From positions 62,001 through 126,000 of the forward strand of contig JANSXH010000005.1 in the NCBI GenBank assembly GCA_024743055.1: DNA of 64,000 nucleotides. Reading direction: 5' to 3'. A program made the translations under genes and the position numbers. The notes below the pieces were generated by a model, which saw only the letters and a program-made list of their open reading frames with translations, was not told the DNA's origin and ran no database searches. Below, one piece after another: positions 2,854 to 61,001 of this stretch. This stretch comes from Pseudomonadota bacterium. GTDB taxonomy: Bacteria > Pseudomonadota > Alphaproteobacteria > Sneathiellales > Sneathiellaceae. Positions within the stretch are counted from its first letter, which is position 1. Each line of letters begins with the position of its first letter.

Positions 2854-4752
2854 CTATTGATTAAGGCTCCGATATAGCTCGATGCCTTCTTCAGCAAATC
2901 CGTTAGCATCATTGACCGCACCTGAGATCGAACTGAGATTGTCGTTAATCTCACTAACGGCGGTTGACGCTGATTGCATACTAACCGTGATTTCTTTTGT
3001 CGTTGCCGTCTGTTCCTCAACGGCACCTGCTACCGAGGTAACACTGGATTCAACCGCAACAATCGCAGCTTTAATGCTGCCCAGATTATTCACAACATTG
3101 TCACTGATTGATTGCATACCGTTGATTTCATTAGAAATCTGGTCCGTCGCGTTCGCGACCTGGCTCGCAAGAGATTTCACTTCAGTGGCAACGACTGCGA
3201 AACCTTTACCTGCTTCTCCGGCGCGGGCCGATTCAATAGTAGCATTCAACGCTAATAAATTAATCTGGGCTGCAATTCCCTGAATAACCTCGATGATACT
3301 GGTCATTTCCTGGGCTGCCGTAGTCAGCTCTTTCGTAGAGACGTCCGCGTTGTCAGCTTCTTCATTGGCCTTTTCCACCTCGGATTTTGAGGCTGTCATG
3401 CTGCGGGAAATTTCCTGAGCTGACGACTGGAACTCTTCTGCGGCTGCCGCTACTGACTGAACCGTTTGCAAGGCATTGCCGGAAGAGGAGACAGCTGAGC
3501 TTGTTTGTTGATTAGCTTCTCCTACAGAAGAAAGTATCTTCTCGAGGTTTTCGTCAACAATCTTACCAACCCGATCCGCTTCTTGGCGGGCAAGAACTTG
3601 TTCCGTAACATCAGTGGCATATTTCACCACTTTGAATGGGTTGCCGTCTGGATCCAAGATCGGGTTGTATGATGCTTGTATCCAGACTTCCCTGCCACCC
3701 TTTGCCAAACGTTTATATTCCGCTGACTGATACTCACCCCGGCCGAGCGAGGCCCAGAATTCTGTATATTCTTCGCTAGCAGCATAAGCTGGCTCGACAA
3801 ATTTCCGGTGATGCTCGCCGCGGATTTCCTCTATGCTATATCCCATAGCGTCGAGGAAATTCTCATTGGCGTCGATTATAGTGCCATCGAGGTTAAACGA
3901 TATCACGGCTTGAGACTTATTCACGGCAGCGATCTGCCCGCGGTAGTCAGCGTTTTGCAGGATACTCTCTGTAATGTCCGTTGCGTATTTTACGACCTTG
4001 AAGGGCTTTCCGTCGGGGTCAAAAATTGGATTATATGAAGCTTGTATCCAGATTTCTTTTCCACCCTTGCCCAGGCGCTTATATTCTCCTGCTTGAAACT
4101 CGCCGCGCGCAAGAGCTGCCCAAAAATCCTTATAAGCGCTGCTGGCGGCATAGTCCGGCTCGACGAATTTCTGGTGATGCTCGCCCTTGATCTCATCAAT
4201 GCTATATCCCATGGCGCCAAGGAAATTCTCATTGGCGTCGATTATAGTACCGTCCAGGTTAAATGAAATTACAGCCTGAGACTTGTTCACTGCATTTATC
4301 TGGCCTTCATAATCCGCAGTCTGTAAAACGCGCTCGGTGATATCGGTTGCAAGCTTAACAACCTTTACCACCTGCCCTGATTTGTCAAAAATGGGGTTAT
4401 AAGAGGCCTGAATCCAGATTTCCTTACCACCCTTACCAAGACGTTTATATTCTGCTGCCTGAAAGTCGCCTCTTGCCAGTGCCTCCCAGAATTCCTTGTA
4501 TTCAGAACTGTTCTTATACTCCGGCTCAACGAACATACTGTGCTTCTGACCAACAACCTCCTCAAGGCTGTATCCCATCGCGCCGAGGAAATTTTCATTC
4601 GCCGTAATTATAGTCCCGTCGGGCTTGAACTGAATAATCGCCTGGGATTTGTCCAAAGCCGAAACAATTGCTTCAAGCTCTCGGGAATTCGATTTGGATG
4701 TCGTAGATTTGGCCTCTAAAGCAGATTTACTTTCAGATAGAAACTTCAACAT
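2854..4752 (-). CDS. soluble methyl-accepting chemotaxis protein with three tandem PAS domains
   Basis: Chemoreceptor of 632 residues without any hydrophobic segment or HAMP domain, so it is cytosolic and senses an internal signal such as redox state or oxygen. Three PAS domains repeat with a period of about 122 residues (roughly 27-148, 149-270, 271-385). Each ends in a PAC-like stretch containing [11 protein letters not shown] ([11 protein letters not shown] in the third) and [10 protein letters not shown] or close variants. The repeats are also strongly similar at DNA level (about 366 bp), which indicates recent duplication. The MCP signalling domain (about 400-632) has the CheA/CheW-binding tip [16 protein letters not shown] near residue 495. 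The HCD-type coiled coil is short. No che genes are nearby. Similar architectures occur in BdlA/Aer-type receptors. Confidence 0.92.
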
Positions 4753-5074
4753 ACTTGGTACCTCACTTTACTATTGTGAGAACGCCAGCAAAGACAAAGG
4801 GCTATCGCCTTACTAAAAGCGCTGACATTTTCATGAGGTTTATCTTATATAAATAATATTAAAATAAAATTAAGGATGATTTTTAGGATTGCGGGAGCAA
4901 ATACAATCATTTGCGCCCACCTGCACTCTGTGGCCCAAAAAGGTAGGCAAGGCCCATACGATCTTACCTTAAACTCTTGATGACGGAAGTGAGGCCAGTT
5001 TTTATGTGATAAGCTACAATCCAAGGTGAAAACGCACTAACAGTATTTTTCAATTTTAACGGGTACCTAAAAAC
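4753..5074. other. 322-bp A+T-rich intergenic region with one hairpin
   Basis: No coding frame, tRNA or recognisable RNA gene is seen. It must contain the promoters of the divergent chemoreceptor and COQ7 genes. The only structure I see is an imperfect hairpin at 4893-4918: arms GGGxGCAAAT and ATTTGCxCCC around a 6-nt loop, with one mismatched pair. Confidence 0.5.
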
Positions 5075-21645: not shown

Positions 21646-21670
21646 AAAAGGCGGGGATTCCCCGCCTTTT
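21646..21670. terminator. bidirectional rho-independent terminator
   Basis: AAAAGGCGGGGA and TCCCCGCCTTTT pair as a very stable hairpin with A- and T-runs on both sides. It lies between the stop of the plus-strand hydratase and the end of the minus-strand PCu(A)C gene and can end both transcripts. Confidence 0.92.
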
Positions 21671-32471: not shown

Positions 32472-32498
32472 AAAAACCCGGCACTGGGCCGGGTTTTT
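32472..32498. terminator. bidirectional rho-independent terminator
   Basis: AAAAACCCGGC and GCCGGGTTTTT form an 11-bp stem around ACTGG. It lies 19 nt past the stop of the minus-strand Bax-inhibitor-1 family gene, which it should terminate. Confidence 0.9.
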
Positions 32499-43961: not shown

Positions 43962-44603
43962 ATGGCTTGGACCAGAGAACAAATGGCACAGCGCGCTGCC
44001 AGTGAACTTGAAGACGGATTTTATGTAAATCTCGGCATTGGCATTCCGACTCTTGTCTCGAACTACATTCCAGAAGGGATGTCCGTTCAGTTACAAAGTG
44101 AAAATGGTATGCTGGGTATGGGGCCTTTCCCTTATGAAGGTGAAGAAGATCCTGACCTGATCAATGCCGGGAAGCAGACGGTCACAGAACTGCCGACAAC
44201 CAGCTATTTCTCTAATTCAGATTCCTTCGGAATGATCCGCGGCGGACATATCAATCTCGCGATCCTCGGCGCTATGCAGGTTGATGAAAATGGTGATCTC
44301 GCCAACTGGATGATCCCTGGCAAGATGGTCAAAGGTATGGGTGGCGCCATGGACCTGGTGGCCGGGGTCAAGCGCGTCATTGTTGTCATGGAGCATACAG
44401 CTAAGGGCTCTCCAAAACTGCTCAAAAGCTGCAACCTACCGCTCACTGGTAAGAATGTGGTGGATATGATCATCACAGATCTTGCCGTGTTCGAATTTGA
44501 AAAAGGCGACGGCGTTAAGATGAAGCTCATTGAGCTTGCAGACGGCGTCACTCTCGAAGAAGTGCAGGATCAGACCGAAGCCAGCTTTGAAGTCAGCCTC
44601 TAA
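43962..44603 (+). CDS. scoB: 3-oxoacid CoA-transferase subunit B
   Basis: Beta subunit (213 residues) carrying the catalytic glutamate E47 in [14 protein letters not shown], which forms the glutamyl-CoA thioester. Other landmarks are [34 protein letters not shown] and [31 protein letters not shown] precedes the ATG. Together with ScoA it makes a complete enzyme. Two large inverted repeats start 22 bp after the stop. Confidence 0.96.
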
Positions 44604-44625
44604 ATACCCGATGAATTAAACCTGG

Positions 44626-44664
44626 AACGATGTTTCATTCTGAAGATCAGATTGAAACATCGTT
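44626..44664. repeat. long inverted repeat IR-1 between scoB and the VPLPA-CTERM gene
   Basis: AACGATGTTTCA (44626-44637) and TGAAACATCGTT (44653-44664) are perfect 12-bp arms. Between them lies an inner 5-bp stem (TCTGA/TCAGA) with AGA as loop, so the whole 39-bp element can form one hairpin. No T-run follows, so it need not be a terminator; it may be a regulatory site. Confidence 0.75.
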
Positions 44665-44678
44665 CGTCAGATCGATAC

Positions 44679-44723
44679 AAAACGCATGTTTTTAGCCAGA
44701 AAATGGTCGAAAACATGCGTTTT
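44679..44723. repeat. long inverted repeat IR-2, possible terminator or activator site
   Basis: AAAACGCATGTTTT (44679-44692) and AAAACATGCGTTTT (44710-44723) are perfect 14-bp arms around a 17-nt loop that itself has CCA/TGG pairing. The right arm ends in a T-run, so it could terminate scoB transcripts. Its place 27 bp before a sigma-54 promoter also suits an upstream activating sequence. Each arm is itself close to palindromic (AAAAC N4 GTTTT). Confidence 0.7.
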
Positions 44724-44749
44724 TATGGTTAATTTCGATCAAATTTCTT

Positions 44750-44765
44750 TGGCATGAGCTTTGCA
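44750..44765 (+). promoter_or_regulatory. sigma-54 (RpoN) promoter
   Basis: TGGCATG-AGCT-TTGCA matches the -24/-12 consensus TGGCACG-N4-TTGCW with one mismatch, and GG to GC spacing is exactly 10 bp. Predicted transcription start is near 44776, 37 bp before the VPLPA-CTERM start codon. Such promoters need an enhancer-binding activator. Confidence 0.78.
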
Positions 44766-44812
44766 ATTTTCTCTCCATTACAAATTGTGAGAGAGGATTT
44801 GACGTAAAGATC

Positions 44813-45511
44813 ATGAAATATTCTAATTTAAAATCTGTCGCGTTAGCGGCTGCAATTGCGGTTTCTACATCTGCTATACCGGCTACAGCGAATGCCCACA
44901 CCGTATCATTAGGTTTTGTCCCAGCGGAAAATGCTGGCGAGGTAACTTTTTGGGTTGGTAATTACACCCATATGGGGCGGCCTGGAAATGTACCAATGGA
45001 AGGCAGCTTGAAGCTGTCAGGTGCTCCCGGAACCGATTACACCACTTCAGTAACAGAGTTCAATTTAAGCCAGTGGAATGGTAACGGCGGCAAGCCCCTT
45101 GGGCTGGTCGATGGGGTCAATAACTTTTATGCGAGCGGACGAGTTCATCGCAATGGAAGTCTGGTTAGTGGTTTCTCAGATTCCTACATCCAGGCTTGTT
45201 TGGCATGCGGTCCCGTCACGGGTTGGCAGGGTGTGACTGTTTCCGGTCTTATTGCCGGCAGTTACATCTTTGAATATGTCAAACAAGCTAATCCAACGAT
45301 GGATTGGACTCCCTGGAACAACTCTTTGAGTAACGTTTTCACCCTTAAAGACATTGATCTTAAGGGAAGTGGCCCACTTAACGTGAGCGCCGTTCCTCTT
45401 CCAGCAGCCTTCCCGCTCTACGGCGCCGGTGTGGCCCTGTTGGGTTTTCTGGGATGGAACCGGAAACGGAAGCAATCCAATGAGCAAAAAGAACTGACGG
45501 CTGCAGTCTAG
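44813..45511 (+). CDS. VPLPA-CTERM sorting domain protein (exosortase substrate)
   Basis: Exported protein of 232 residues. A signal peptide is cleaved after ANA (28). The mature beta-rich domain has a C-L-A-C pair at about 129-132. The C-terminus is a tripartite sorting signal: VPLPA at 194-198, a hydrophobic helix to about 215, and a basic NRKRK cluster at 216-220. This is the VPLPA variant of PEP-CTERM, recognised by a dedicated exosortase, so the protein is probably cleaved and attached to the surface or matrix polysaccharide. No exosortase or polysaccharide genes are in the window. A sigma-54 promoter and two long inverted repeats precede it. The ribosome site is weak (AAAG). Confidence 0.88.
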   Translation: MKYSNLKSVALAAAIAVSTSAIPATANAHTVSLGFVPAENAGEVTFWVGNYTHMGRPGNVPMEGSLKLSGAPGTDYTTSVTEFNLSQWNGNGGKPLGLVDGVNNFYASGRVHRNGSLVSGFSDSYIQACLACGPVTGWQGVTVSGLIAGSYIFEYVKQANPTMDWTPWNNSLSNVFTLKDIDLKGSGPLNVSAVPLPAAFPLYGAGVALLGFLGWNRKRKQSNEQKELTAAV

Positions 45512-45539
45512 TACCGATTAAAGACCAGCTGTCAGTTAG

Positions 45540-45573
45540 CTGGTGAGGGTTCTATCCCCTTTTCCTTCACCAG
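45540..45573. repeat. inverted repeat after the VPLPA-CTERM gene
   Basis: CTGGTGAxGG and CCxTCACCAG form imperfect 10-bp arms (7 bp contiguous) between the convergent stop codons at 45511 and 45603. An alternative stem, CCAGCT/AGCTGG, overlaps it upstream. Without a T-run it is only a possible terminator. Confidence 0.4.
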
Positions 45574-45602
45574 TAAGAGGGAAGCGGCATATGTCTGGGT
45601 GA

Positions 45603-46529
45603 TTAGGTATCATCTCTGCGCATATGCCGTTTTCTACCAAGCCCGGATTCCCGTCGGACGATATAGAGGCTTGATCCAACAATTATCAGTGCCCCCAATA
45701 TCATTCCCAATGTGGGTATTTCACTAAACACAAGATATCCAAGAACACCTGAAAAGATGAGGCGGGTGTAATCAAAAGGCGCGACCGCAGTTGCCTCCCC
45801 CACCGCAAACGCGCGAATGGCACAGAAATTTGCTCCTGATCCAAGAGAAGCAATAACCGCAAGAATCAACAATTCTTCCCAACTTGGCGGTACCCAGACC
45901 AGTAATGCCGGGATAAATGAAAAGAGAGACGCCATCACCCCAAAATAGAACATCATTGTCGTTGGCGCTTCCGTTACACTCAGTTTCTTCAAAAACACGG
46001 AGACAAGTGCCACCATCAAAGCCCCGAACAAGGCAACGGCGGACGCCAATTCAAAGCTCGCATTGGTCTGGACCATGACCAATACTCCCAGGAAGCCGAC
46101 CAATGTCGCTGTCCAGCGCCGCCAGCGGATTACCTCTCCCAAAAAAAGGACGGCGAGAAGAATGAGGAATAACGGCCGGGTAAATGTGAGAGCCACTGCG
46201 TCCGCCAACGGCAAATGAGTGATGGCATAAAATATCGATAACATCCCTGAGACACCGACGATTGCCCGGAACAAATGCAGGTGAAACACCTTTGTTTTGA
46301 GGGGCCGTATGCCTCGTCTAAGGGCGAAGGGTAAAATGGCGATCAGTCCAAATAGTGCTCTTAGGAATGCGATCTGGAAACTGTCCATCCCCTCCCCCAG
46401 AAACTTGATGCCCAGGCTCATTAGCGAGAAGAGAAGCCCGCCCAGCAGCATCCACAAAGCACCTTGTCCATTGGCAGGAATTCTGGAAAAAATCCCTTTT
46501 TGGGCAGTAGATCTGCTTTCCTCGCTCAT
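45603..46529 (-). CDS. EamA/DMT family transporter
   Basis: Ten-helix inner-membrane transporter of 308 residues of the drug/metabolite superfamily, made of two EamA repeats. Landmarks are GALWMLLGGLLFSLMSLGIKFLGE, FLRALFGLIAILPF, ITHLPLADAVALTFTRPLF and, in the second half, AVGEATAVAPFDYTRLIFSGVLGYLVFSEIP. Such proteins export metabolites or amino acids. Its start overlaps the stop of a paralogous transporter gene upstream (ATGA), so both are made from one mRNA. Substrate unknown. Confidence 0.9.
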   Translation of the reverse strand: MSEESRSTAQKGIFSRIPANGQGALWMLLGGLLFSLMSLGIKFLGEGMDSFQIAFLRALFGLIAILPFALRRGIRPLKTKVFHLHLFRAIVGVSGMLSIFYAITHLPLADAVALTFTRPLFLILLAVLFLGEVIRWRRWTATLVGFLGVLVMVQTNASFELASAVALFGALMVALVSVFLKKLSVTEAPTTMMFYFGVMASLFSFIPALLVWVPPSWEELLILAVIASLGSGANFCAIRAFAVGEATAVAPFDYTRLIFSGVLGYLVFSEIPTLGMILGALIIVGSSLYIVRRESGLGRKRHMRRDDT

Positions 46530-60965: not shown

Positions 60966-61001
60966 ATCGGATTACCATGCCGCAATTGGCGGTAATCCGA
61001 T
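60966..61001. repeat. 11-bp inverted repeat
   Basis: ATCGGATTACC and GGTAATCCGAT form perfect 11-bp arms around a 14-nt loop that contains GCC/GGC. It lies 34 bp past the stop of the unrecognised membrane protein gene at 61036 and 154 bp before the YggT-type start. It may be a terminator or attenuator, though no clear T-run follows on the minus strand. I see nothing else in the 224-bp gap. Confidence 0.55.

Follow-up and report, generated by a model that had tools for sequence, protein, structure and literature searches.

PEP-CTERM genes controlled by PrsR carry a motif 1, whose 3' end reads TTTACA, at 32-92 nt before the sigma-54 motif (PMC1569441), and pepA of Aquincola is a sigma-54 dependent PEP-CTERM gene (PMC9850573). 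Many exosortase substrates are without this motif (Haft 2006, PMC1569441). The octamer TTAACCAT is the half-site of the regulator CtrA that is known from Caulobacter and serves in Ruegeria KLH11 too (PMC3692519), and it is also found in work on Rhodobacter sphaeroides (PMC6180460). The locus considered here lies in a window of 64,000 nucleotides (the whole stretch of DNA that was analysed) from a marine Sneathiella genome, and it has something of each of these systems: a gene for a putative exosortase substrate stands behind a very likely sigma-54 promoter, and a match to the CtrA half-site is found upstream of it.

The gene (44813-45511, plus strand) is monocistronic and encodes a VPLPA-CTERM, exosortase XrtD substrate-like protein of 232 aa, as judged from the profile and from reading of the C-terminus. 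The product has a signal peptide and ends in VPLPAAFPLYGAGVALLGFLGWNRKRK plus a short tail, and by eye VPLPA, followed by a membrane segment and then basic residues, is plain at its C-terminus; its scores are 9.8 bits for TIGR03370 (cut-off 25.35) and 13.8 for the Pfam PEP-CTERM model (cut-off 20.7). XrtD itself is encoded in the genome (C19:63661-65091; TIGR04152, 445 bits, cut-off 400), so that the exosortase locus which the first-pass annotation had advised looking for does exist. A profile search, with the matches read by eye, gave ten VPLPA-CTERM genes in this genome including that of the window. Among 25 genomes of the order, full-length homologues of the window protein were found in two other Sneathiella only (59-62% identical). 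These two genes sit in other gene surroundings, the sigma-54 site and the repeats described below are missing from both, and the one at locus L047 lacks TTAACCAT as well. The named full-length relative comes from a Sneathiella MAG, the sequence of which agrees with one of the same-genus genomes, and on this ground the organism of the window is taken to be a Sneathiella.

The surroundings of the window gene suggest how it came to its place. To its left is scoB (43962-44603, plus strand; TIGR02428, 328 bits, cut-off 243.6), which encodes 3-oxoacid CoA-transferase subunit B and is the last gene of scoAB, and to its right is a convergent gene for an EamA/DMT transporter (45603-46529, minus strand; PF00892, 114 bits). 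In seven relatives, the ScoB proteins of which are 85-88% identical, the transporter gene directly adjoins scoB and ends only 10-30 nt past it. In the window the distance is 999 nt, and the VPLPA-CTERM gene lies in this stretch with its promoter and both inverted repeats. By parsimony, this block of about 1 kb (44604-45602), absent from the close relatives, is most simply explained as an insertion in this Sneathiella lineage rather than as a loss in the relatives. The insertion seen in these comparative maps would account for the window gene being an outlier among the VPLPA-CTERM genes.

A sigma-54 -24/-12 element, TGGCATGAGCTTTGCA, is located at 44750-44765 (plus strand) and matches the consensus exactly, with GG at 44751-44752 and GC at 44763-44764 (GG-N10-GC). 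From this geometry the transcription start is predicted at about 44776 on the plus strand, 12 nt past the GC of the -12 element, and the ATG at 44813 lies 37 nt downstream of it. The near-consensus element and the 37-nt distance of the first-pass annotation are thus borne out. The genome-wide search for TGGCAYG-N4-TTGC that it had proposed gave nine matches in the 3.6-Mb genome, against one for the reversed control. Seven of the nine stand directly 5' of a plausible start in the correct orientation, and the other two are within coding sequence. The genes behind the seven include those for an ABC-type binding protein, read as UrtA, and a FlgF-like protein, both named from their translations. 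Because RpoN is encoded in the genome (439.5 bits, cut-off 277) and the motif is promoter-specific there, the element is very likely a sigma-54 promoter of the 44813-45511 gene. In the genus it stands alone in this role: the exact site is absent from 85 of 86 distinct VPLPA-CTERM upstream regions, the sole carrier being the window gene.

Between scoB and this promoter are two long inverted repeats. IR-1 (44625-44665) has 19-nt arms (44625-44643 and 44647-44665) with 95% complementarity, one mismatch and a 3-nt loop. IR-2 (44679-44723) has perfect 14-nt arms (44679-44692 and 44710-44723) bordered by an A tract and a T tract. The two perfect repeats that had been noted from the sequence, with arms of 12 and 14 bp, are therefore both present, and the description of IR-2 holds; that of IR-1 needs correction, its outer perfect part being 13 bp, not 12, within imperfect arms of 19 nt. 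Of all perfect hairpins in the 64-kb window these two are the longest, shuffled sequences giving 0.05 hairpins with arms of at least 13, and RNA folding gives -26.8 kcal/mol (z -6.0) for IR-1 and -25.9 kcal/mol (z -7.3) for IR-2. A DNA search of the 25 genomes found neither repeat anywhere else. A search for the dyad TGTTTCA-N8-22-TGAAACA likewise recovered that of IR-1 at the window locus only, the remaining matches being one-off dyads. The repeats may be enhancer sites, as proposed from the sequence, but, being unique to this locus, they offer no second site for comparison.

The stem of IR-2 runs directly into a T run (GCG-TTTTTATGG, a T5 tract), as expected of an intrinsic terminator, although a simple terminator scan limited to loops of up to 8 did not report it. 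The same A4-stem-T4 build occurs in two other hairpins of the window, at 21646-21670 (between convergent genes) and at 32472-32498. With its A tract, stable stem and T tract after a gene end, IR-2 is most likely a terminator-type hairpin that would stop read-through from scoAB, and the earlier suggestion that it might end scoB transcription is plausible. IR-1 is not followed by a T run on either strand (GTCAGATCG on one, CAGGTTTAA on the other). An Rfam search of the region gave sub-threshold matches only. The R-box pattern of attC sites is RYYYAAC/GTTRRRY. IR-1 was also considered as an attC-like recombination site and was rejected by eye, the R-box pattern not being found. Another intergenic hairpin of the window, at 60966-61001, has 11-bp perfect arms and a 14-nt loop (ATCGGATTACC), also without a T tract.

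Both hairpins might belong to the scoAB transcript alone and form its 3' end, as a terminator together with a stabilising stem-loop, and have no connection with the VPLPA-CTERM gene. IR-1 begins 22 nt past the scoB stop, IR-2 has its strong stem and T5 tract, and a hairpin with a T run follows scoB in other Sneathiella in which the next gene is co-directional. However, IR-1 has no T tract, such hairpins are missing after scoB in the closest relatives, and both stems are long and A+T-rich, whereas the terminators after scoB in other relatives are G+C-rich. We therefore regard this explanation as unlikely for the pair, though it is the strongest of the alternatives to the model proposed below.

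The most widespread element of the VPLPA-CTERM genes in the genus is a different one. When the 8-mers of their upstream regions were counted without prior choice, TTAACCAT was the commonest. It was present in 22 of the 37 upstream regions of the first set and in 47 of 86 of the enlarged one, against 1.99 expected from order-1 Markov shuffles; near-identical regions had been removed from the 86 and orthologues of related species kept, so that they are not fully independent. As a control, 92 non-VPLPA genes were taken whose upstream sequence measured 150 nt or more, and two of them had the octamer (Fisher p ~1e-16). Loci L106-L124 were left out of the control, having been fetched by their likeness to a site-bearing segment, and with them the count is 10 of 119. 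The spacing TTAA-N7-TTAA forms a peak (23 seen, 5.6 expected, shuffle maximum 10), a second peak is at TTAA-N17-TTAA (18 vs 4.2 expected; 21 nt, or two helical turns), and a smaller one is at N9 (13 vs 4.3). The octamer was not found at the xrtD locus, and an extended test of plasmid-borne VPLPA-CTERM genes gave no match.

The window gene has one copy of TTAACCAT, on the minus strand at 44725-44732 (within TTAACCATA at 44724-44732), between IR-2 and the -24 element, and no full site. TTAACCATA occurs at 25 sites in the genome, seven of which are upstream of six of the ten VPLPA-CTERM genes, that of the window included. CtrA is encoded in the genome (NF045991, 420 bits, cut-off 350), and a full CtrA-type site, TTAACCAATTGTTAA, is present in the promoter of ctrA itself. 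Because TTAACCAT matches the CtrA half-site, CtrA probably controls the set of XrtD substrates. At the window gene, the single reverse half-site beside the T tract of IR-2 may be a chance match. Two further occurrences were seen. At 4859-4873 of the window, TTAAAATAAAATTAA is a low-complexity full CtrA-like site, possibly there by chance, upstream of a chemotaxis-type gene (2854-4752, minus strand). A conserved gene (MSFAR..PLFSQ..) of several Sneathiella (L106, L108, L109, L111, L121 and L123) has an upstream stretch that resembles 44721-44746 of the window, TTAACCAT included.

It is improbable, in our view, that the octamer marks a regulator other than CtrA, such as a different member of the OmpR type whose site resembles that of CtrA. 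The tie to CtrA is one of sequence, related regulators can share sites, and the N17 peak (18 vs 4.2) falls outside the textbook CtrA site. On the other hand, the exact half-site and the N7 spacing both fit CtrA, and the few control genes that have half or full sites include some of the CtrA type, which, by names taken from translations, are ctrA and the genes for a chemotaxis-type protein, a CheY-like protein and a flagellar ATPase resembling FliI. CenR was ruled out as the owner of the motif, since it uses TGA-N8-TGA instead (PMC9275681).

The first-pass annotation had suggested that the gene might belong to a VPLPA-CTERM regulon with a shared sigma-54 site and repeats, run by PrsK/PrsR and RpoN, and had itself held that the absence of these elements from other such genes would refute it. 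This absence is what was found: the 350 nt read upstream of each of the remaining nine VPLPA-CTERM genes of the genome contain no near-consensus sigma-54 site and no copy of IR-1 or IR-2. No PrsR scores over the TIGR02915 cut-off (502.6 bits) in 24 Sneathiella genomes, the best match in the genome of the window, which is 86% complete, reaching 353 bits. TTTACA is absent from both strands of 44604-44812. Because PrsR over the cut-off and motif 1 are both missing, control of the PrsK-PrsR type was rejected, and the shared regulon is not supported. In the single sister-genus genome a PrsR does exceed the cut-off, with 659 bits (G001:C7:26479-27804), which, set beside its absence over the cut-off in the 24 Sneathiella, may indicate a change of regulator between the genera. 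That IR-1 and IR-2 are the enhancer sites of a dedicated PrsR-type sigma-54 activator of exosortase substrates is very doubtful: their centres are in the usual enhancer range, some 131 and 75 nt upstream of where transcription is predicted to start, their arms have AACG(C)ATGTTT in common (weakly; shuffle p ~0.025) and pepA is a precedent (PMC9850573), but the genus has no PrsR over the cut-off where its sister genus has one, the PrsR-box core TTTACA is missing, the other VPLPA-CTERM genes of the genome do not have the elements, neither repeat recurs in the 25 genomes, and no repeat-like dyad accompanies the other eight exact sigma-54 sites of the genome.

A native activator is the likelier one for the promoter. 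The genome encodes five enhancer-binding proteins, namely NtrC (713 bits, cut-off 559), FlbD (772, cut-off 750) and NtrX (710, cut-off 600), all recognized by curated models, and two unnamed ones. The GAFTGA loop is intact in NtrC and FlbD, and in the other three it reads GAFPGA, reads GAIPGI or is degenerate. Because of this intact loop, NtrC and FlbD are the best candidates among the genome's own enhancer-binding proteins, one of which is likelier than PrsR to be the activator. The genome being 86% complete, further activators may be missing from this list. NtrX and the unnamed NtrC-family regulator with GAIPGI, both without the GAFTGA loop, may not act through sigma-54.

These observations can be put together as follows. 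An XrtD substrate-like gene would have been inserted, together with its upstream DNA, as a single-gene unit next to scoB, on the side where the convergent transporter gene adjoins it. A genuine sigma-54 promoter, activated by a native enhancer-binding protein other than PrsR, best NtrC or FlbD, would give a transcript that starts close to 44776. IR-2 would stop read-through from scoAB, and IR-1 would be a second hairpin, serving as a 3'-end structure or as an operator. CtrA would bind TTAACCAT, which separates IR-2 from the -24 element, and would affect the sigma-54 promoter itself or operate next to it. As a whole, we think this explanation somewhat better than an even bet. Its wider form is a tentative proposal to which we give slightly less than an even chance: that in Sneathiella the dispersed XrtD-sorted surface proteins are controlled by CtrA, a regulator of cell cycle and motility, and not by PrsK-PrsR, and that this set includes the window gene, which was inserted and has an additional sigma-54 promoter.

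If the proposal is true, exosortase display would be tied to cell type or cell cycle, and a single exosortase substrate would be the meeting point of two global circuits. More than half of the sampled VPLPA-CTERM genes of the genus are preceded by a CtrA-type site, which provides a named and directly testable regulator and suggests that the cell makes these surface proteins at a particular stage or in a particular state. This also bears on how exosortase substrates are controlled outside the PrsK-PrsR group, and the window locus presents one such gene at a new place with a different type of promoter. We found no report joining CtrA with an exosortase, and the papers mentioning both CtrA and PEP-CTERM appeared unrelated by their titles and mention counts; the novelty is provisional, the subscription literature having been mostly outside the search.

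Compared with known systems, IR-2 resembles the bidirectional intrinsic terminators in its A tract, stem and T tract after a gene end, and differs from them in the 17-nt gap between its perfect arms and in its A+T-rich stem, whereas IR-1 differs in having no T tract. The XrtD/VPLPA-CTERM sorting system (TIGR04152, TIGR03370) is matched by the presence of XrtD and by the VPLPA, membrane segment and basic residues of the window protein, the tail of which, however, falls below the TIGR03370 cut-off. Like the members of the PEP-CTERM PrsK-PrsR/sigma-54 regulon (PMC1569441; PMC9850573), the window gene is a single-gene exosortase-substrate unit with a -24/-12 element at a distance from the start codon within the reported range. 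Unlike that regulon, the genus has no PrsR over the cut-off, motif 1 with its TTTACA is missing from the locus, and the other substrates of the genome do not have the sigma-54 site in common with the window gene. With the CtrA regulon of Caulobacter, Ruegeria KLH11 (PMC3692519) and Rhodobacter sphaeroides (PMC6180460), the likeness extends to the TTAACCAT half-site, the TTAA-N7-TTAA spacing and the full site in the ctrA promoter. It differs in that the main putative class of targets here is the exosortase substrates, for which no such report was found, and in that the window gene has a sigma-54 promoter in addition.
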